This document shows, one piece after another, positions 41,892 through 63,600 of a DNA stretch of 64,000 nucleotides. Position 1 is the stretch's first letter; each line of letters begins with the position of its first letter. A program made the position numbers and the translations under genes. Where the stretch lies: contig NC_068559.1 of assembly GCF_022201045.2 (NCBI RefSeq), positions 17,851,501 to 17,915,500 on the forward strand, written 5' to 3'. The notes under the pieces were generated by a model. It saw only the letters and a program-made list of their open reading frames with translations. It made no database searches and had not been told where the DNA came from. The stretch comes from Citrus sinensis. Its lineage: Eukaryota > Streptophyta > Magnoliopsida > Sapindales > Rutaceae.

Positions 41892-41965
41892 ATGCAAGAA
41901 CACAAACCCTTTCTTCCCCGTGGCTTCAAGTTTAGAACATCAGATGAAGAACTTATCGAACATTA
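41892..41965 (+). pseudogene. NAC transcription factor, 5' part (split by Tat element)
   Basis: The ATG at 41892 begins a NAC domain. Residues 7-25 read FLPRGFKFRTSDEELIEHY, matching subdomain A (consensus LPPGFRFHPTDEELxxxYL). The host reading is cut off after 'EHY', where the Gypsy element begins. The gene continues after 52832. A TATA-like box lies about 155 bp upstream. As it stands, the locus could make only a very short NAC fragment read into LTR sequence. Confidence 0.88.
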
Positions 41966-42713
41966 TGTTGATGCGGGATTCTGGTTATCTGCTCGTCCTT
42001 GACCAGGATCTCTCCTCAACTAACTCTTCAACGACCAGGATCTCTCCTCGTAAGATTTCCTCTCCGCAGACTCCTGCATACACAAAGACAGGTTAGAGCA
42101 CGCCGGGTGTTTTTCCGGCGTAAACCCTCCGACGCTCAAGTTAGAAATATAGGTTTTGTCTTCCTGGGAAACAAAGCCACTAATATTATGGCTTTTTTAT
42201 GATCTCTCAAATAGAAAGCTCTCTTTTCTAGTTCTAATCTCAAAAAGTCTAACCTGTTTACCTTCGTTGGTTACCTTTTTATAGGCTTCCTTTGACTTCG
42301 GCCCTTCCTGCAATCCACGTCCACCACCCCTCTCAACACTCGGAAGTGGGTGTGTCATTATCGTAGTTGTGGCTGAGTGGACTTCGTGCCTTGATTCTCG
42401 GGCAGCAATGCACGTCTTGCCAACCGTCATTGACCGGGTCTCCCCCCCCCCCCTCTCAGCCTCTAGCAGGAATGGCCTTATGCTCCTAGCAGGAGGCCAA
42501 CTCCCGCCATGGCCCCGTGGAGGGTGCATTCGTGAACGAGTAGAATATTCCTGTTCGGGGTCATCTGCTACTAGACTTCGGCTCAATATTCCTGTTCGTG
42601 GTCACCTACTACCAGACTTCTGCAGAATATTCCTGTTCTTGGTCACCTGCTACCAGACATCTGCTCATCATGGTTGGTCTTATCGAAGTATATCTCCCAA
42701 ACATCAGTCCCCC
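41966..42713 (-). repeat. Left LTR (3' LTR in element orientation)
   Basis: 748 bp with TG...CA ends. It contains a short C homopolymer and three variants of an 'atattcctgttc' unit near its right half. It is almost collinear with the LTR at 52090. Confidence 0.95.
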
Positions 42714-52011: not shown

Positions 52012-52089
52012 TGTTCCCTCACTTCCTTTCCTCTTTCTCTCTCTATTAACAGAAGTTTTTTGCTCAGCTCCCCACAGACAGCGTCAAAA

Positions 52090-52832
52090 TGTTGATGCGA
52101 GATTCTGGTTATCTGCTCGTCCTTGACCAGGATCTCTCCTCAACTAACTCTTCAAAGACTAGGATCTCTTCTCGTAAGATTTCCTCTCCGCAGACTCCTA
52201 CGTACACAAAGACAGGTCAGAGAACGCCGGGTGTTTTCCCGACGTAAACCCTCCGATGCTCAAGTCAGAAACGTAGGTTTTGTCTTCTTAGGAAACAAGG
52301 CCACTAATATAATGGCTTTTTTATGATATCTCAAATAGAAAGCTCTCTTTTCTAGCTCTAATCTCAAAAAGTCTAACCTGTTTACCTTCGTTGGTTACCT
52401 TTTTATATGCTTCCTTTGACTTCGGCCCTTCCTGCAATCCACGTCCACCACCCCTCTCAACACTCGGAAGTGGGTGCGTCATTATCATAGTTGTGGCTGA
52501 GTGGACTTCATGCCTTGATTCTCAGGCAGCAATGCACGTCTTGCCAACCGTCATTGACCGGGGCCCCCCCCCCCCCCCCCCCTCTCAGCCTCTAGCAGGA
52601 ATGGCCTTATGCTCCTAGCAGGAGGCCAACTCCCGCCATGGCCCCGTGGAGGGTGCATTCGTGAACGAGTAGAATATTCCTGTTCGGGGTCATCTGCTAC
52701 TAGACTTCGGCTCAATATTCCTGTTCGTGGTCACCTACTACCAGACTTCTGCAGAATATTCCTGTTCTTAGTCACCTGCTACCAGAAATTTGCTCATCAT
52801 GGTTGGTCTTGTCGAAGTATATCCCCCAAACA
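52090..52832 (-). repeat. Right LTR (5' LTR in element orientation)
   Basis: 743 bp with TG...CA ends, containing a longer C homopolymer (about 20 C near 52562) than the left LTR. The CATTA target duplication follows directly. Confidence 0.95.
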
Positions 52833-53902
52833 CATTATCTTAAGAAGAAGGTTTCGGGAATACCCATTCCTCTCGCTGAGTATTTTGTCAGGGACTGTAA
52901 TCTTTATGAGACAAAACCCTCTGAGATTTGGGATTCACATGGAAGACCCTTTTTAAATGCTGATGAGGATCTGTATTTCTTCACCCGCAAAGGAAGGATG
53001 CCGGTAAAGACATTGTAAGCGGCCATTGCAAAATCAAAATCGGCTCCAAGAAATGGTTTCGTTATGAAAAGAAAGGTTCTGAGGATCATGGGGCTTGGAT
53101 CATGCATGAATACACTCTAGATTTGTCCAAGAATCAAGCTACCAATTATGTGCTTTGTAGGCTCCGAAAGAACCAACCAACTGGCCAAGATAAGAAGTAC
53201 GGTTCTGCAAAGAAAAGAAAGTTAAATGATATTCAACACAATAGTAATCAATCTAAACAAGTGACAGATACTAAGGTGGAGAGGGTTTTGACCCACCAAC
53301 AAAATCAGCAACAGAACTATGTGCACTATCAAGAAGTAAGTTGCAGCAATACTGGCATGATGAATGAGCAGAGCTTATCTGGTGGAATGGGCTTTGCAAG
53401 CAGTGTTATTGAACATTCTATTGTGACTGATCAAATGCAACAACATCAATATGAACAAATGACAGATATTGAGGTGGAGAGGGTTTTGACCCACCAACAA
53501 AATCAGCAACAGAACTATGTGCACTATCAAGAAGTAAGTTGCAGCAGTACTGGCATGATGAGTGAGCAGAGCTTATCTGGTGGAATGGGCTTTGCAAGTA
53601 GTGTTGCTGAACATTCTGGTGTGACTGATCAAATGCATAAACATTAGTGTCAACAGATACTAGTTCAGAATTCATAATGTCATTACGAACCATCTATAGA
53701 GATAATGATGAGTCATTTTGATAAGATGTTATCTATCCAGCAATGTGACTCCGGAAACAACTTGCTTCAAAGTGGAGAAACTGGTGGAGAAACCTTGGCC
53801 ATTTCATTTGATTATGAAAGCAGCATTGATTATGAGTAGGAATCAATTCATCAGTTGCTTCAGTCTGACTTGGTGCTGGACTTAGAAGATATCTTGTTGT
53901 AA
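52833..53902 (+). pseudogene. NAC transcription factor, 3' part
   Basis: Directly after the Tat element the host NAC reading resumes with LKKKVSGIPIPLAEYFVRDC, the continuation of subdomain A/B, then DLYFFTRKGR (subdomain C), and in another frame GAWIMHEYTLDL and NYVLCRLRKNQ (subdomains D/E). The C-terminal region is Gln-rich and contains a 66-codon in-frame tandem repeat. Besides the insertion there is at least one frame shift around 53000-53040 in the DNA-binding domain and further stops after 53645, before a decayed acidic tail (DLVLDLEDILL) ending near 53902. The gene is therefore a pseudogene on several counts. The missing usual NAC introns are unexplained; the split may replace or hide one. 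Confidence 0.85.
53263..53644 (+). repeat. 198-bp in-frame tandem duplication in the NAC C-terminus
   Basis: Units start at 53263 and 53461 with gacagata. Each encodes a segment like VERVLTHQQNQQQNYVHYQE followed by SLSGGMGFASSV. The two copies are over 90% identical. Confidence 0.92.
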
Positions 53903-54911
53903 CTGAATTATGAGAGAAATTTGTGTTTTATTAACTGTAATGATCCTTCACGATGTAATTTGACCATTTCGTCATTTATAAATTGTATAGCTTTATTCAT
54001 TTATTTTGTTAATATGCATTGTATCATTTATATTGTTGATCTGCAAGTATCCCATCCTTGTACTTCTGTGGCATCATGCTGAATAACCACCATTCAATGT
54101 CAATATGATGCTCTCTATTGTAACTGGTGAATAAAAACTGAGAAAATTGCTTCATTGCATGTTCTGGTCGTAGTTTAATTTTCGCAACACTTTTAGGTAG
54201 GAACGCCATCTATCGACTAGGCTCATTATTTTGTACCCTACAAAGACTTTATTTGCAAGCTAGACACACCTCACATGCTGGAAATTTAGAAATAGAATGA
54301 CGGAATTGCTTGACTAGCAAATTGACATCCATGTCAAGTAAGTATCTCATAGTTTATCATCTAACTATAGAGAAGAATTTGTGGGGAAAAACAAGAATTC
54401 AGTTGCAGGTAATCGAATTATTCCTTGGCCATGCGGCAGATGTTCCAAAGGGTTTGGAAGTAAATGCCATAAACGAGCGGACACAGTGCACTTGACCTGC
54501 TGCTGATTTTCCCAAGTGAAGCTGGAGATAGAGAAATCGTATTTAGTTAATTGTTAGAAAAAATAAGCGTAGCCAATTTGAAAAAAACCCAAAAATGTTT
54601 GAGTTAATTATATAAATTTCCCTGTAGACTACAGGTATTTTAATAATTTGTAGCAATTCATTTGTCACCAAAGAAACACATTTAATCAACTGGTGAGTCT
54701 TGTTCTTTTCTTTTTTTATATATTTTATTTTAGTGATCCTTGTTCTTTTTTAATTACCTTCACTCACAGTCAAGTGGCGCAAATGATAAAACACAGAGCT
54801 TTACTCTTGTTTCAATTGCAACTGGGATCAGGCAACTGGAAGCCATTTTCTTCTGATCATTTTCTTAAATTCAATAGTTTTTCTATACAACACGGGTTGA
54901 TAGTGATACGA
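53903..54911. other. Intergenic, with start of the tandemly duplicated RBOH-chimera block
   Basis: No gene is seen from 53903 to about 54690. From about 54690 the sequence matches the stretch upstream of copy 2 (about 56840-57059), including 'ggaagccattttc' and 'aaattcaatattttt'-type phrases, so leader or promoter DNA was duplicated along with the gene. Confidence 0.5.
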
Positions 54912-55733
54912 ATGGATGCTGAAAGAAGGAGATTACCTCGCCACTCAAGAAGCCCGCTAAACATGAGAAGAAAATTTTTTGTCATGGGCTAGTTACATAC
55001 AGTTAACATGAGAAGAAAATTTAACAACGTAGCTAGACTCGTTTGCTGCTGTGGTATTTACTGTGGCCCCTTTTTTTTGGGTTTATCTTTTTATATCACA
55101 GGTTTGTGAGTTGGTAAGTAAAAATGGGAAACGCAGACTTGCTTTTTCGTTCCTTGTGTCGGAGGCTGTGTCAGTTGTACTGGATCATGTATTTGGAAAT
55201 AGCAAATGGGCTCCTCTCGCTGCATTTCTCCTGTCCGCATTTGGTTTTGCCATAAACATCTATGCATGTTTCTTGGAAAGAAGAAGAAGAAGCAACGTCA
55301 GAGCAATCAGATCACAATCTGATCTGCAGCTTGAGATAGTAGATATCGTGTTCTCTGCACTTCAGTTTATTGCTATATCGATCCATTTTATTCTGATGAT
55401 ATCAGATGTGAAGTCCAATTATAATGCATCTGTTCTTTTGCCGTTGGCCTTTGCTGTAACTGACTGTCGTCTTCGTTTTTAGAACCGGAGAAAATGTTGA
55501 GAATACTTCACTTGAAAAAGGGTTGGAGAAAAGGACAGCTTCTTTTGGTTCCAATGTTGTTGGAACTGCTTCTGTGAGAATCAGGCAGCTGTCTCAAGAG
55601 CTTAAGCGGTTGGCTTCATTTTCGAAGAGGCCTAATCCGCCTGCTCTGTTTGATAGCACCAAGTCTGCTGCAGCTCATGCCTTGGAAGGGTCTCAAGTTT
55701 CAATCATCAATCACGCACCTGTCAGAAATTTCT
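54912..55733 (+). pseudogene. Membrane-RBOH chimera, copy 1 (broken)
   Basis: The exon-1 counterpart is 54912-54956 ([15 protein letters not shown]); its donor reads ctaaac where copy 2 has gtaaat. The exon-2 counterpart starts at 55102 after tatatcacag and encodes the same four-helix segment as copy 2 ([19 protein letters not shown]). After a frame break it continues with an RBOH N-terminal stretch (ASVRIRQLSQELKRLASF, then TKSAAAHALEG), which is better preserved than in copy 2. Right after the 'KGLKF' position the sequence jumps to DNA matching intron 4 of copy 2, so a deletion removed the rest. A LINE fragment follows. This copy cannot make the chimera protein. Confidence 0.75.
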
Positions 55734-56539
55734 TGTAATCTGCCTATGTACGTCTTCACACAGCCCTTTTGGGAGCTTGAAAACAGACATTGCATAAATT
55801 GGAATAGCCTGCACAACTGCCTTCAGCAGAATCTCCTTGCCTCCCAGCGAAAAGAGCTGTGATTGCCAACCTTTAATTTTATTAAGCACCCTGGTTTTGA
55901 CCATTGAAAAAAATTGATGCTTTCTCCTCCCCACCATAGATGGAAGACCAAGATATTTCTCATGGTGAGAAGCTACATTCAATTGAAAAAGAGCCTTGAT
56001 ATCCTCTTTGATGCGATTCTGTACACTGGGGCTAAAAATCATGGAGGATTTGTCAAGGTTAAACGACTGTCCTGAAGCTTTCGTGTGCTTGTCAGGGATT
56101 GCCTTTAAAACATGCATTCATCAGGAGAAGCTCGATATTAAACTATCATATGCTAAAAAAATAAATGAGTAATAGTTACATGATTGTAGTCGAAACCCAC
56201 TCCATGAATTAATCTTCTTTCTGCAGCTTCATATGGTAAACTAGACAAGACATCAGCATAAATAAAAAATAAATAAGGGGAGAGGGGGCATCCCCGTCGC
56301 ACGCCTCTCTGTGGATGAATAATGCCTCTGACTGTAACATTAGTTAGAAGTGAGAAAAATGATGAAGAATTGCACCGCATGATTAAGGCTACCCATTTAC
56401 AAGAGAAACCCATCTTCACCATAGCTTTTGCGAGAAAAGATACTGATACAATTGTACTTCGAGAGGTATTTGGCAGGAACCTTTTTTCAAGTTTTCCGTT
56501 CAATGAAACAGATTTAACCAAATAGCACATCATTAGCAT
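55722..56539 (-). mobile_element. LINE (L1-type non-LTR retrotransposon) fragment
   Basis: On the minus strand two frames show plant L1 reverse transcriptase: GIIHPQRGVRRGCPLSPYLF followed by GVGFDYNHVTITHLFF (the box preceding ADD), then LGLPSMVGRRKH and INRKIxGW-like/KEILLKAVVQAIPIYAMSVF, the conserved post-RT region. Neither the endonuclease nor a poly(A) tail is present, so it is an internal piece. It is broken by a short disordered stretch near 56120-56150. Confidence 0.85.
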
Positions 56540-57059
56540 TTTTTTATATGCTCGTATGGAGAGAATGATTTTAGAATTTTTTTTTTTTAATTTTTCATAT
56601 TACATACACTTGATATATGTATGATATGTGTGTGTATTCAGTTTGGTAATGGAGCTCCACAGTTGTAAAGAACATAAAGTGGTTTTGTGTTTGATTAAAA
56701 AAATATTATTACTCTCATTAGGATTGTGAATTGGTTATTTTTAAATTGTTCTTTTTATTTTTAAAATTTTCAATTTACTCAATTTTTATTTAAAAGACTA
56801 AAGAAAGGTTCATCAATCCAAGAACATATCTAATCAACTTGTTCGTCTTTAGTCTTTAGTCTTTTCTTCATTGATTCTTGGTCTTTTTTAATTGCGTTTA
56901 TTCCCAATCAAGTGGGCACGAAGGAAAAAACGCAGAACTTTCCTTGAACATAACACACAACTTCACTCTTGTTTTAATTGCAGCTGGAAGCCATTTTCCT
57001 CTGATAATTTCTTTAAATTCAATATTTTTGCTACACAACAAGGGCTTACAGTGATAGGA

Positions 57060-59834
57060 ATGGACTTTGAAAGAAGGAGATTACCTCGCCACTTAAGAAG
57101 CCCGGTAAATAAGTTTCATTCTCAACGGTGTCTAAATGTCGGACACCTATAATTTTTTTGTTGATGGTGTTATTAATTACTTGAGTTGTACTGCATTTTG
57201 TCATCGGCTAAATAGGTACAGTTAATACGAGAAGAAAACTTAAAATTAGATAGCTAACGTAGCTAGACTCATTTGCTATTGTAGTATATACTGTGCGGTT
57301 TTTTTTTTTTTCAATTTGGGTTAATTTTTTTATATCACAGGTCGGTGAGTTGGTGGTATGTAAAAATTGGAAACGCGGACTTGCGGTTTTGTTCCTTGTA
57401 TTGGAGGCTGTATCAGTTGTGCTGGATCATGTATTTGGAAATAGCAAGTGGGCTCCTCTCGCTGCATTTCTCTTGTCCGCATTTGGTTTTGCTATAACTA
57501 TCTATGCGTGTTTCTTGGGAAGCAGAAGAAGAAGAAAAAGAAGAAGAAGCACCATCGGAGTAATCAGATCACAATCTGATCGGCAGCTTGAGATAGTAGA
57601 TATCGTGTTCTCTGCACTTCAGTTTATTGCTACATTGATCCATTTTATTCTGATGATATCAGATGTGAAGTCCAATTATAATGCATCTGTTCTTTTACCA
57701 TTGGCCTTTGCTATAATTGCTGTCATCTTCGTTTTTAGAACGGAAGAAATAATTGAGAATTCTTTCCTTGAAAAAGGGTTAGAGACAGGACAGTTTCATT
57801 TTCCAATGTTGTTGGAACTGGAATCAGGCAGATGTTTCAAGAGCTTAAGCGGGTGTGTCAAATTCATTAGCGAGACTGATGGTGGCGCTGGTTGGGCAAA
57901 TGTTGAGAAGCGATACGATGAAATTACGGCATCAACTAATGGGGTCTTGCCTCGTGCTCGCTTTGGCGAATGCATAGGCATGTGTACACACACACACACA
58001 CACACACTTATATATATAGCATGATGCAACGTTAAATGTTGTGTATGATTTGTTTGTTTGTTTGTTTGCTGTTAATAATTTTATTTGTGTTAATGTTATG
58101 GCAGGAATGGACAAGGACTGGAAGGAATTTTCTGTTAACTTGTTTGATGCTTTAACTCGAAGACACAACATTCATGGGGATACAATCACTAGGGATCAGT
58201 TAAGAGAGTTTTGGGATGAGGTCAATAATCAGAGTTTTCATTCCAGGCTTCAAATTTTCTTTGACATGTAATGATTAATTCTTCTTTAATTTAAAAGGAA
58301 AAATTACAATTTTTTTTTTCCATTTTTTGGCATGTTCATTGCAAGTCATTCATCATTTTTGTTGTTTGTGGTGAAAAAATTATTGCAGAGTTGGTAAAAA
58401 TGGAGTTGACAGAATCACGGAAGATGAGCTCACAGAGGTATGGCATGTTGAATAATTCCAAAAGATGCACTAAATTCAGTACTAATTAAGTTTGAATCAT
58501 CAATCATGTGCTTGTCAGAATTTTCTTTTAGTTATTTTAATCATCAATTGTTATATATATCTACAGATTATCTAGGGATGGCAATGGGGAGGGGAGGGGA
58601 GGGGACCGATCTCCCCGTACCCATCCCCGATATTTTACGTATGTCCCCATCCCCTCCCCGTCCCCGTCAGAATTACTTGAGAGAATCCCCATCCCCTCCC
58701 CGAATAATAACAGGGGATCCCCGAGGGTCCCCGATCCCCGAATAACTAATACATTTTTTTTTCGATTTTGAGTTAATCATATTAAAATAAAAAATTCAAA
58801 TAAAAGTAAAGTTCGAAATATATCTTACATTAATATCTATTACAAAAGTCACATACATTAAATTAGTAAGTAACGCAACATACAAGAGATACAAACTTAT
58901 TTTACAAACTATCATGAACAAATTAATAGTCTAATACAAAATTGTTACAAATAAAATCAAATTTAGATTCAAAATTAACTTTTTCAATGGTGGTGTGGGC
59001 ACTTTATAAATGTGGACTATTCCCTTTACAACACAATAGTTAAATCGGAGCAAATCAAAAGTAAATATTAGATTAGATTAGATTAGATATTAAAATTGTG
59101 ATTCGCTGTGGGCAATTATAACATCTAAAATTAAATAAAAAATAGATTTAAGTTTAAAATATTTAAAGAATATCAAAATTAAAAAAAAATTTGGCTAATA
59201 GAATCTACTCAGTCTTTTTAATGTCCTAAATAAAAATTTAGAACTTTAATTAGCTAATTAGGCCTAAAAGTTTAATAATATAAATATTTTGATATTTTTT
59301 ATTTTTACCAATATTTATAATTTTATAATTTAAATTTTATAATTTATTTACTAGTAATTTTAAAAAATTAAAATTAAATTAAAAATTAAAATGGGGAAAT
59401 GGGTAGGGGATGGGGATTCCACCTCATCCCCGTCCCCTCCCCGAATAAGAAATTGGGTAAAAAAATTTCCCCGTCCCCTCCCCGAATAAGAAATTGGGTA
59501 TGAAATTATCCTCATACCCTCCCCGAATGGGGAAAATCCCCGAGGGTACCCGTCCCCGTGGGGATTTTTGCCATCCCTAAGATTATCTGCCTCAGTGCAT
59601 CTGCAGACAAATTCTTAAATACCCAAAAGAAAGCAGAGGAATTTGCTGCTGGGATTATGGAAAAATTGGATCCTTACTATCTCGGATACATCACGGTAAA
59701 TAAAAATTTTAAAAAAATTATTTTAAAAAAATCTGAAGAGTTAAGCATATATCTTACAATTATATTGTTCAAAATTTGACCAGATAGACGATCTGGAAGC
59801 GCTTCTCGGCTTTGCCTCATACCCCCCGGTATAA
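57060..59834 (+). CDS. Chimeric four-helix membrane segment plus RBOH regulatory domain (copy 2)
   Basis: Six exons stay open for 352 residues: 57060-57104, 57341-57977, 58105-58267, 58389-58437, 59582-59695 and 59784-59834. Residues 1-15 are basic. Four hydrophobic segments follow at about 28-47, 52-74, 100-121 and 130-147, with a Lys/Arg cluster at 77-84. From about 189 it matches the N-terminal NADPH_Ox/EF-hand region of plant respiratory burst oxidases ([59 protein letters not shown]). It stops before the oxidase's heme-binding helices and FAD/NADPH domains, so it cannot make superoxide. Residues ~170-188 differ from the RBOH reading preserved in copy 1, suggesting small indels. Intron 2 would be GC-AG; intron 4 contains a hAT element. 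It may be a decaying gene that has stayed open, or a truncated regulator. Expression is unknown. Confidence 0.6.
57990..58008. repeat. (CA)n microsatellite in chimera intron 2
   Basis: About ten CA units, starting about 12 bp after the intron's GC donor. Confidence 0.9.
58573..59579. mobile_element. Non-autonomous hAT element at an intron-exon border
   Basis: Terminal inverted repeats TAGGGATGGCAA and TTGCCATCCCTA bound 1007 bp. An exact 8-bp target duplication, AGATTATC, lies at 58565-58572 and 59580-59587, the hAT signature size. Both ends are packed with GGGGA/TCCCC motifs (ccccgaat, ggggacggg types), while the centre is AT-rich and non-coding. It inserted across the intron 4 / exon 5 border of the chimera gene, and the duplication contains the acceptor AG plus the first six exon bases. 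Confidence 0.95.
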
Positions 59835-60698
59835 CTACCATTACTTAGTTACAAGCACCGGCGCAATCTTGAAGGCGGTGACGGATACTACCTGGCTTTA
59901 TGGTTTTTCTACTTAAGAACATAGTTTTTACTTTAGTATGTACCTAAAGTAATATCCTCTATAGTTAACTTACCCTTGCATTGGGATCTTTAAAATTCAA
60001 TATTGAAAAAGCAGTAATTTCAAATTAATAGAACACTGCTGAAACAGAATAATTTGATCATCTTTCAAATGACACGATCCCAATGATGATCATGTTTATA
60101 CGGCACGTTCATTCCTGTAACAGAAAATAATTTGAGACTGCAGTCAGCTATCGCGATGATTGATCTACCGGCAATATTCACATGATTTCAAATGGACAAA
60201 TTTATCCAATTTCGGTTCTCGCGCGAGCAATTTGACAGCTCCCTGAAAGTTTCAGCAAAACAAGCACTACAATTGTTCCTACACAAGTATGACCGATCTG
60301 GCTCCTGTATAAAAAAGCACGAGTCGGATTTTACGGATTTTACAGCCAGGAAATAGCAGGCAGCTCACACAGTGAAGATCAAAAGAAAATTTGTTTATAA
60401 CATTCCTCTAATGGAGATGGACAAACTTTTCACCTTATTGTACCATGTATGAAAAAATAATTGTACCCTCTCCTCCGATCAAAATTCTACAATAAAAAAC
60501 AAGAATAAAAAATAAGACAAAACTTAAGCCAAGTTTCCACTGCAAAGTTTGGGACTGTTTCTCACTCTAAGCGAGAATGATCTCGCCTATAAATTAAACT
60601 CATCTTAGGCCTCTATCTCATCTCATGTTGGGCCATTAGTAGATTTTTTTCTCATTTTTCTTTCTATTACCACTTCTGGTACAATTATATGATCATGT
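59835..60698. other. Intergenic between converging chimera and Tudor-SN genes
   Basis: No further RBOH exons are visible after the stop at 59832-59834. The right part (about 60400-60698) is likely the 3' UTR of the minus-strand Tudor-SN gene. No other structure is recognised. Confidence 0.5.
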
Positions 60699-63600
60699 TC
60701 ATCGTCGGCCTCCAGCAACCTTTCTCACAGCAGAAGGTAATGGGTCCTCATCATCAGACTGAATATCTCCATACTGCCACATCCCAATCCTAGCAGTCTT
60801 AGCTTCTTCCTGGAATTTTTCAAGATTCTCAAGGGCAGCCTGTCTGTCTCTGGATCCCCATCTCTTCCTCCTCTCTACCCTTGCAAGTCCTTCCTGAAAA
60901 ATACATGAGGCGTAACTTACACAAACAAGCCAGCTTTATTTAGATTCATTTGCTCATTTTCCTAGAGAACAGTGGCAAGTTTCACATCCTAGAATAATTT
61001 TTCAAATGCACGTGCTCGTGTTCCTCAAATCAAAAGCCTATTTTATCAGAAATACCAAGTAAATCAAGGACTAGTAATCAAACCTGAACCATAAGAGTAT
61101 TTATGCTAATCTCAGCATCCACAGCAACCAGAGTTACATGAAGAAGTGTCCCAGTTCCCTGTCCCTTGAGTTTTCCTCCAGAAGAATCCCTTTCTTCCAC
61201 TAAGGCCCTAAATTCATTTGAACTGTTATACGTATGTTCATTCAAGAACTCAGCTGCTTCAGGACCATACTCATCTTCCAAGGCAGGAATCTTGATGTAG
61301 GCAAGGCTGCATAGCTGAGCAAGAGGTGGTGTCGACGATAATGATGGATCAATAGGCCTCAGCTTATTGTATGGAACCAACTCTTGATTTCCATAATCAA
61401 TATAGAATACTTCAAATTTGTCGTTTACAGATTCAACCTTCTCCCGAGGTGCATTGACAATCTAAACATATCGGATCAGAGAGTAAGCAAAACAACACAG
61501 GAATCCAAACCAAGTTAAAATCTTGAATTTACTGAAGCAAGGAAGATGACAGAAGGCAATTGTCCTAATGCATGCAATAACGGAAAACACATTAGCATTG
61601 CATTGGTATCAATGATTTTTAGTTTTTTTAAAATTCTTATAATACCAACTACGGACAGAACTCAACAACCAGAATTTGAGTAACAGAGAAAATAAATTGC
61701 CAAACTTTTGACGGTCTTGATGTATCCATATCCAGAATTTAACATATCAAGCAACCATGACCAGAAATTTGCAGACGCTTAAGCCCCTAAATAGTAAATT
61801 GCTTTGCTTCTAAGTGAAAAGAAAAATATTAGAGCACTTATTTTGATTTAAATATGCTTCCTAATATGAGAGGGAAAAAAAGAAAAAGAAAAAGAAAAAG
61901 AAAAAGGCATTCTTTGCCACATTATCTGATCATGTTTTTGGTTCACTCTCATAAGCTTTCTAACTCCCCACTCGTACTTCCCACACCCACACATACATTC
62001 ACTGAGATTTGCTTAAGATGATTATAAGCAGAAAGTCCTAAGCTTGTATAATCAGCAGGGAGTGCTATGATATCTAAGTTTTCGCTGTAGCAAATTGTAA
62101 GGGAGGTAAGAGTTCACTGACCATAGCTCGATTCCAGGAATTATCTGCACTAAATTGAGCAAGAACAATTTCGCCCTTCTTAGGGTTAAAAGCACCAATT
62201 ACAGGAGCTTCTTGGAGATTCAGAGAAGCAAGTTGTTGCTGAACTGAGGCAACTTTCTGATCACCAACTTGCTGAACATAAAATTTTCCACCTCCCAAAA
62301 TTTCTGTAACCACCACCTGAAAATAGAGGTAAGCAGGAAATCATTTACTATTTAGAACACAAGAAGAGGACAATACATGATGCAATAGTATCAAAATCAC
62401 CTTTAGCACTTCTTTCTGTTTGCCTTCTACAGCTGCACCATTGGACACTTCCTCTCCTTCAACATAATTCTCCCATATCTGCAATAATATTTCAATTAGC
62501 AGAATCAACATAAGAATGAAAGCAAAAAAGACTTACACTATGATTCTTACCTTCAGTTTCTGTGATTTAGCAGATTTTTCAGCCTGTTCAAGAAGATGAC
62601 TGTCTGGGATCCTGTCACTGCCAAAAGATGTTTGTAGCTTTGCCAGGCCAGCTTCAAGAAGAATCACTGCCACGTTGGTCCTTGACTCCCATAAAGATCC
62701 CAAGAAAGTGCCGGTTCTATCAACTGTTTCCACTTCAATCTGTATAGAAACAAATAAATATAGATTAAACTAAGTATGGAGAGCAACCGAGAATATTTAA
62801 AGAAGTGAAGTACCTCAACATCTCTCTGCAAAATCTTTTGTCTCATTAGTAAAAGCGCTTCATTTGAATAGCGCTCGTTACGACCGGGACATCGGACACC
62901 AGAGAATGAAAAGGCAATGCTACATGTTTCCTTGGGAATCAACACCTTAAAGCGGTGGCCACTGAGGACATATTCAACAACTGCAGGAATTCTCCTACTC
63001 CGTTGAAGGAACGGCAAAAAATCTCTAGCTTTCTTGACGGGTGCCTGTTAAAGACATTCAATTGAGTAAATGATAAAAAAGTCACTTGGTTTCGCGATTC
63101 ATTGAATGAGAAATATTTTAGTTGATCCTAACCATAGTCAGGTCTTGTATGTGCATGACTGGGGGTTCCTTCGAAGAGTAACACCCTTTCTTCCCAGCTT
63201 TGGCACGTGCTTCAGCCGCAAGAAGGGCATCATAATAATTTGATCTTTCCTCAAAATCTCGATGGTTAATCACATTGCCAAGGCCACGTGAGACTACCAG
63301 CTCAGCAACATTCACTCCAGCAGGCTGGCCAGCAGCATTAGATTGGGCCACTGCCGATGCGTCATCACCCTCACCCTTAATGGGAGACAGGAGGAAGATT
63401 GATCCAAAATCAATTATTCTTGTTTCTGTAGCCCCCACAGACTCTTCCCCAGCTGGCCCTTTAGCTGCAGCTTGCCCTTTGGTCCCAGCAGGCCCTTTAG
63501 TCCCAGCAGGCCCTTTAGCCCCAGCCGCCACTGGTGCTGCTTCCACAACAACCTTCCTGGAATATTCCATTTGAACATTCACCTAAAACAAAATAAATAA

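Follow-up and report, generated by a model that had tools for sequence, protein, structure and literature searches.

Two chimeric genes in tandem

The DNA analysed here is a 64,000-nucleotide stretch of the Citrus sinensis genome (C4:17851501-17915500, hereafter the window), in which positions are counted from the first base and features lie on the forward strand unless stated otherwise. Searches of the genome covered 299.7 Mb in 11 contigs. The window contains a tandem pair of chimeric genes, termed copy 1 and copy 2, in which a segment of four hydrophobic helices stands in front of sequence derived from the regulatory part of a plant respiratory burst oxidase (RBOH).

Copy 2 spans 57060-59834, and its six exons join into a single open frame of 352 codons (1,059 bases) with zero internal stops. 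Exon 1 (57060-57104) contributes 15 protein letters. Exon 2 begins with the four-helix segment (57341-57753, placed by the exon model and a family search) and continues into RBOH-derived sequence (57754-57977) comprising a linker and then the start of the NADPH_Ox domain, with a GC donor at 57978. The remainder of NADPH_Ox occupies exon 3 (58105-58267; exon model and Pfam), a degenerate EF-hand loop 1 lies in exon 4 (58389-58437; comparison with the parent RBOH described below), and the EF-hand region continues in exon 5 (59582-59695; exon model and DNA alignment). Exon 6 (59784-59834) ends with a TAA stop located within a 41-bp insertion. Beyond it lies a final stretch of RBOH homology (59848-59881), past whose end there is no RBOH match. 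Every intron of copy 2 has an AG acceptor. The exon junctions 57104/57341, 57977/58105 and 58437/59582, proposed in a first-pass annotation of this DNA, all hold, with the qualification that 57977 precedes a GC donor and that the 58437/59582 'intron' holds a 1,007-bp hAT-like element.

The predicted copy 2 product has four hydrophobic stretches, with Kyte-Doolittle maxima near residues 29-47, 55-74, 103-121 and 129-147, and the RBOH NADPH_Ox and EF-hand region is C-terminal to these helices. The only Pfam match of the 352-residue product (E up to 0.01) is PF08414 NADPH_Ox, at 95.8 bits against a cut-off of 27 and covering the 101-position profile from position 16 to its end. A composite of the RBOH part, assembled by eye, matched the solved chain 3a8r (E=4.7e-42), which is annotated in the structure table as a putative uncharacterized protein and which we take to be the EF-hand region of OsRbohB. 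Neither copy 2 nor the 866 bases from 59835 yielded a catalytic exon, and RBOH homology stops at 59881; the first-pass annotation had likewise reported no catalytic part. Copy 2 is a genuine fusion of the four-helix segment with an RBOH regulatory part, and, with its catalytic part missing and its Ca2+ loop damaged, it is not an RBOH by membership.

When exon 2 of copy 2 was modelled together with copy 1, the predicted structure contained four long helices (exon-2 residues 10-31, 38-68, 79-107 and 114-149) at a low confidence, too weak for a fold search, with a mean predicted local distance difference test (pLDDT) score of 48.6 and a predicted template modelling score of 0.29. Under the positive-inside rule, positively charged flanks of membrane helices face the cytosol. 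Copy 2 carries 8 lysine or arginine residues ahead of transmembrane helix (TM) 1 and 10 between TM2 and TM3, and this charge distribution fits a topology in which both termini, if the protein is made, would be cytosolic, the side that also holds the regulatory regions of RBOHs.

Copy 1 is a pseudogene

Copy 1 begins with a start codon and 15 codons of exon 1 (54912-54956), after which CT stands where copy 2 has its GT donor. Its four-helix segment (55102-55489) has one additional base relative to copy 2, which shifts the frame in TM4. The RBOH linker piece that follows (55490-55692, placed by alignment) runs up to a deletion junction ahead of NADPH_Ox and matched no Pfam family with E as high as 1. 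Abutting it is a remnant of RBOH intron 3 (55693-55740), identical to copy 2 intron 3 at 36 of 43 bases, and the NADPH_Ox and EF-hand exons that should lie between are missing. Judged by these lesions (deletion of the NADPH_Ox/EF-hand exons, loss of the first splice donor and a frameshift in TM4), copy 1 is a pseudogene. The earlier description of both copies as a four-helix segment joined to an NADPH_Ox/EF-hand region is correct for copy 2 and has to be amended for copy 1, which retains the linker only.

Reverse-transcriptase-like frames, presumably of the long interspersed nuclear element type, lie 3' of copy 1 on the reverse strand (55722-56599; open reading frames 55722-56117 and 56153-56599). 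An RVT_1 match was seen in the frame at 56153-56599 only, and at 16.6 bits (E=0.0068) it is below the cut-off of 29.6.

The RBOH part derives from a neighbouring gene

A whole-genome search with PF08414 gave 14 matches at seven loci, namely the window and six others. One of these matches (C4:17954827-17955234) is on the opposite strand about 45 kb to the right of the chimera. The DNA of this RBOH gene aligns, in pieces and with introns included, to copy 1 from 55490 and to copy 2 from 57754 to 59881. The parental stretch, C4:17954223-17955390, is about 1.2 kb long, starting within exon 1 and ending early in exon 6. Copy 2 and the parent share the NADPH_Ox and EF-hand exons, identical intron positions and DNA homology through the introns; they differ in that the chimera begins with four helices and lacks catalytic sequence, whereas the parent, presumably an RBOHA/C/D-like gene, carries catalytic exons. 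A processed retrocopy of the RBOH is ruled out, since the introns were copied too. Beyond the window, a genome search with the parental stretch turned up no other copy that compares with it in length and identity; the remaining matches are short ones or weaker ones to RBOH paralogs. Seven Rboh genes encoding proteins of 777-946 amino acids have been described in C. sinensis, and the main text of that survey, in the part available, does not use the word pseudogene (PMC8776138).

The four-helix part belongs to a dispersed family

The four-helix segment alone has at least 31 matches in the genome, including the two in the window. The others comprise a C4 pair at 21.1 Mb (67 and 64% identical), groups of matches clustered on C5 and C8, and scattered matches on C1, C2, C5, C6 and C7. 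Each of the 29 matches listed outside the window is either separated from the nearest NADPH_Ox match by more than 3 Mb or located on a contig that has none, and so, among the listed matches, only the window's two lie near an NADPH_Ox match. Those standalone members whose frames were read (L011, L013, L014 and L016) have a tail of their own and end soon after TM4; in the chimera this short native tail is replaced by RBOH sequence. The SAFGFA motif of the conserved four-helix exon is invariant in 7 of 7 aligned sequences and is present in copy 2. Two members of the family, C4:21136108 (L011/L036) and C4:21157560 (L012/L037), are 59-67% identical to the chimera in the four-helix exon, depending on the alignment, and L037 also resembles it in exon 1 and the leader of that exon. 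Unlike the chimera, both have their own C-terminal tail and no RBOH part. Within the four-helix family, the chimera is a diverged member whose tail has been replaced.

Nothing in Pfam matches the family convincingly. The four-helix part of copy 2 reached no Pfam family at its cut-off (best DUF4231, 18.2 of 24.7 bits), and over the seven members scanned the best Pfam E-value was 0.0023 (Per1, in one member). A search of solved structures with the four-helix part returned weak matches, the best at E=0.31 with a single sequence and E=0.1 with a profile, and one scan of viral contigs found no relatives.

A separate observation concerns the mobility of family fragments. A 5.09-kb repeat on C6 and C7 (L040:605-5693 and L041:1380-6428, 97% identical to each other) starts with CACTACTAGAAAAA, ends with TTTTTTAGTAGTG and is flanked by the 3-bp target duplications TCC and GCT, like CACTA transposons. 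It holds a fragment of the four-helix family, with an open frame of 124 amino acids, and is a case of gene capture by a transposon. Four more matches on C2 and C7 resemble this captured fragment, judged by length and identity only.

The fusion preceded the duplication

The join falls within a coding exon and preserves the reading frame. Both copies share it, their sequence from 55490 and from 57754 onward matching the same parental stretch, and the fusion is older than the tandem duplication because the same join is found in both. The first-pass annotation had drawn this order of events from the shared junction, and had also regarded a membrane anchor ahead of an RBOH part as unusual; the order stands, and the own-genome searches with each part bear out the second point, only the window's two of 31 four-helix matches being near NADPH_Ox. 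These observations likewise bear on whether the arrangement could stem from errors of assembly or gene modelling, or be the way in which the family is normally built, an explanation that we regard as scarcely credible. The junction is common to two copies that then diverged independently, and a parent RBOH with catalytic exons lies nearby; fusion as the normal family architecture is ruled out, as no other four-helix match was found near an NADPH_Ox match.

At the junction the relative L037 reads TTGCAAAAG, the parent RBOH TTGCAAAAGG and the chimera TTGAAAAAG. A short stretch shared by L037 and the parent RBOH may have guided the join, to judge from these two present-day relatives; L036 is without this stretch and L037 has an in-frame stop. 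Insertion of an RBOH piece mid-way into a four-helix gene was also considered and is not supported, the right flank (59835-60700) recurring only as a 67-bp match.

Copy 1 and copy 2 are 8-9% apart in the four-helix exon and 8% apart in the linker; for intron 1, the short remnant of intron 3, and exon 1 together with its leader, the figure is 14-17%. These percentages come from gap-rich alignment settings and may be low. Divergences between the copies alone would not settle the order of fusion and duplication.

A hAT-like element sits at an acceptor of copy 2

The element between exons 4 and 5 of copy 2 (58573-59579, 1,007 bp) has 12-bp terminal inverted repeats and is flanked by an 8-bp duplication, AGATTATC, at 58565-58572 and 59580-59587. 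Such features are typical of hAT elements. The duplicated bases take in the AG of the acceptor together with the start of the exon, so that the right-hand copy restores an in-frame acceptor, while splicing to the old acceptor leads to a stop after two codons. The hAT-like family has 956 first-look candidates in the genome, 40 of which were scored; among the 41 matches listed, nine, including the window's own, are 100% identical (rounded). Near-identical copies are present elsewhere, and the insertion at copy 2 is therefore probably recent.

Evidence for and against decay in copy 2

In the conventional numbering of EF-hand loop positions, Asp 1, Asp 5 and Gly 6 of the parental loop 1, DKDADGRITEDE, are all replaced in copy 2; by these residues, EF-hand loop 1 of copy 2 is damaged. 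In the RBOH part as a whole 38 of 154 residues differ from the parent, and with a single outgroup (L008) to place the changes 27 fall on the chimera branch and 3 on that of the parent, while 8 are assigned to neither. Some twenty-odd linker codons of copy 2 are read outside their original frame, and the linker has five unique changes in copy 2 against one in copy 1 (chi2 2.7). The 41-bp insertion that supplies the stop (about 59807-59847) occurs once in the window; a 15-base piece of it was not found in the adjacent 60 kb.

Rates of change point in the same direction. Divergence of copy 2 from the parent is 0.143 in exons and 0.135-0.157 in introns. On the chimera branch a ratio of non-synonymous to synonymous substitution rates (dN/dS) of 1 is not rejected (log-likelihood, lnL, -1210.54 vs -1210.04, a difference of 0.5), nor are equal ratios on the chimera branch and the short parent branch (lnL -1210.06). 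A single ratio on all three branches fits much worse (lnL -1219.3), the outgroup being at 0.08. In the four-helix part, neither outgroup allows a dN/dS of 1 on the copy 2 branch to be rejected.

A number of observations weigh against decay. The RBOH exons (463 bp) are without indel or stop and the introns have 14-18 indels, a contrast that is overstated since the introns are AT-rich and repetitive; in simulations, the chance of zero stops was 0.13-0.20 for 50-66 substitutions. The indels of the copy 2 linker relative to the parent amount to a net -90 bp and keep the frame. The free estimate of dN/dS on the chimera branch is 0.52, and the pairwise value between copy 2 and parent is 0.50 (bootstrap 0.29-0.86), a figure that includes the constrained parent branch. 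Between the copies, divergence is 8% for the four-helix exon with the linker and 14% for intron 1 and for the leader together with exon 1; the lower exon divergence hints at past constraint on the exon. Sites unique to copy 2 or to copy 1 in the four-helix part number 6 vs 18 with outgroup L036 (chi2 6.0) and 10 vs 16 with L037 (chi2 1.4).

The donor after exon 2 is GC in copy 2 and GT in the parent, and its failure is at the centre of one alternative, namely that copy 2 still makes what is essentially a four-helix protein. Retention of the intron at the GC donor leaves an open frame of 242 codons, so that the product would end just past the first part of NADPH_Ox, with the RBOH part as a passive tail. 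The standalone members L011, L013, L014 and L016 end soon after TM4, and with one of the two outgroups the four-helix part of copy 2 is better kept than that of copy 1. Against this, GC donors are often spliced, and neutrality of the copy 2 four-helix part is not rejected with either outgroup. We consider this outcome unlikely.

Also unlikely in our estimation is that copy 2 works as a whole, the four-helix anchor holding a cytosolic, Ca2+-insensitive RBOH regulatory fragment at the membrane, where it would pair with the neighbouring RBOH or titrate its partners. The open 352-codon frame, the AG acceptors throughout and the lack of indels and stops in the RBOH exons are in its favour, and the lysine and arginine distribution fits cytosolic termini, as in RBOHs. 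A review, in the part available, describes direct binding of OsRAC1 by the N-terminal region of OsRbohB with its EF-hands (PMC7565977). However, exon divergence equals intron divergence, the EF-hand loop is damaged, twenty-odd linker codons are out of frame, and a GC donor and a recent hAT insertion at an acceptor add to these lesions. A more specific version, in which copy 2 is an expressed, fast-evolving chimera whose four-helix anchor displays a Ca2+-blind RBOH dimerisation fragment at a membrane and which modulates the neighbouring RBOH as a decoy or in a dominant-negative manner, and in which the hAT insertion was tolerated as the target-site duplication rebuilt the acceptor, is in our view improbable. 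The first-pass annotation had itself put forward, as speculation, a tether or interference role for copy 2; the lost EF-hand residues, the GC donor, the hAT element at the acceptor, the insertion-derived stop and the equal exon and intron divergence have weakened that proposal, with the RBOH exons still open and indel-free.

Given its structure, parents, event order and lesions, copy 2 is probably a decaying chimeric gene, transcribed or not, that would have neither oxidase activity nor Ca2+ sensing. In the history that we propose, the 3' end of a four-helix family gene was replaced by, or joined to, a copied piece of about 1.2 kb from the RBOH 45 kb away, and the chimera was then duplicated in tandem. 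A deletion, together with other lesions, subsequently destroyed copy 1. Copy 2 kept its open 352-codon frame, probably under little amino-acid constraint, and gained the EF-hand loss, the GC donor, the recent hAT insertion and the insertion-derived stop.

Neighbouring sequence

To the left of the chimeric genes lies the tail of a NAC-type gene (52967-53658; NAM 21.9 bits, below the cut-off of 27), which contains a tandem repeat (53247-53460 and 53445-53658, 91% identical). The flank at 53900-54538 has relatives on C3 and C4. Further to the left, a 744-bp direct repeat (41965-42703 and 52089-52832) is 95% identical, its two units about 10 kb apart.

Discussion

If copy 2 is silent, the locus is a well-documented instance of a chimera that arose from a nearby gene, was duplicated and then decayed, while the RBOH parent and relatives of the other parent survive. 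Should copy 2 be expressed, it would give plants an example of an NADPH-oxidase regulatory fragment that is catalytically dead, anchored in a membrane and arose next to its parent. In either case the locus carries a warning for surveys of RBOH genes, as a domain search alone detects it although it is no oxidase.

A limited literature search on RBOH fusions and truncated RBOHs showed no such fusion, and nothing broader is claimed about its absence from print. RBOH pseudogenes are known from other plants, for example Nasturtium officinale (Brassicaceae), for which 4 pseudogenes among 19 RBOHs are reported (PMC10856686). Those pseudogenes are similar to the present locus in being broken or truncated RBOH-derived sequence; they are different in that the available part of the report describes no fusion to another gene family (PMC10856686).

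More generally, chimeric genes and pseudogenes that arise by partial duplication are a known class. The copy 1 and copy 2 pair resembles its members in that a copied gene fragment, with its introns retained, has been joined to another gene. What sets this locus apart within the class is that one can name its parents, its join and the order in which the events took place.

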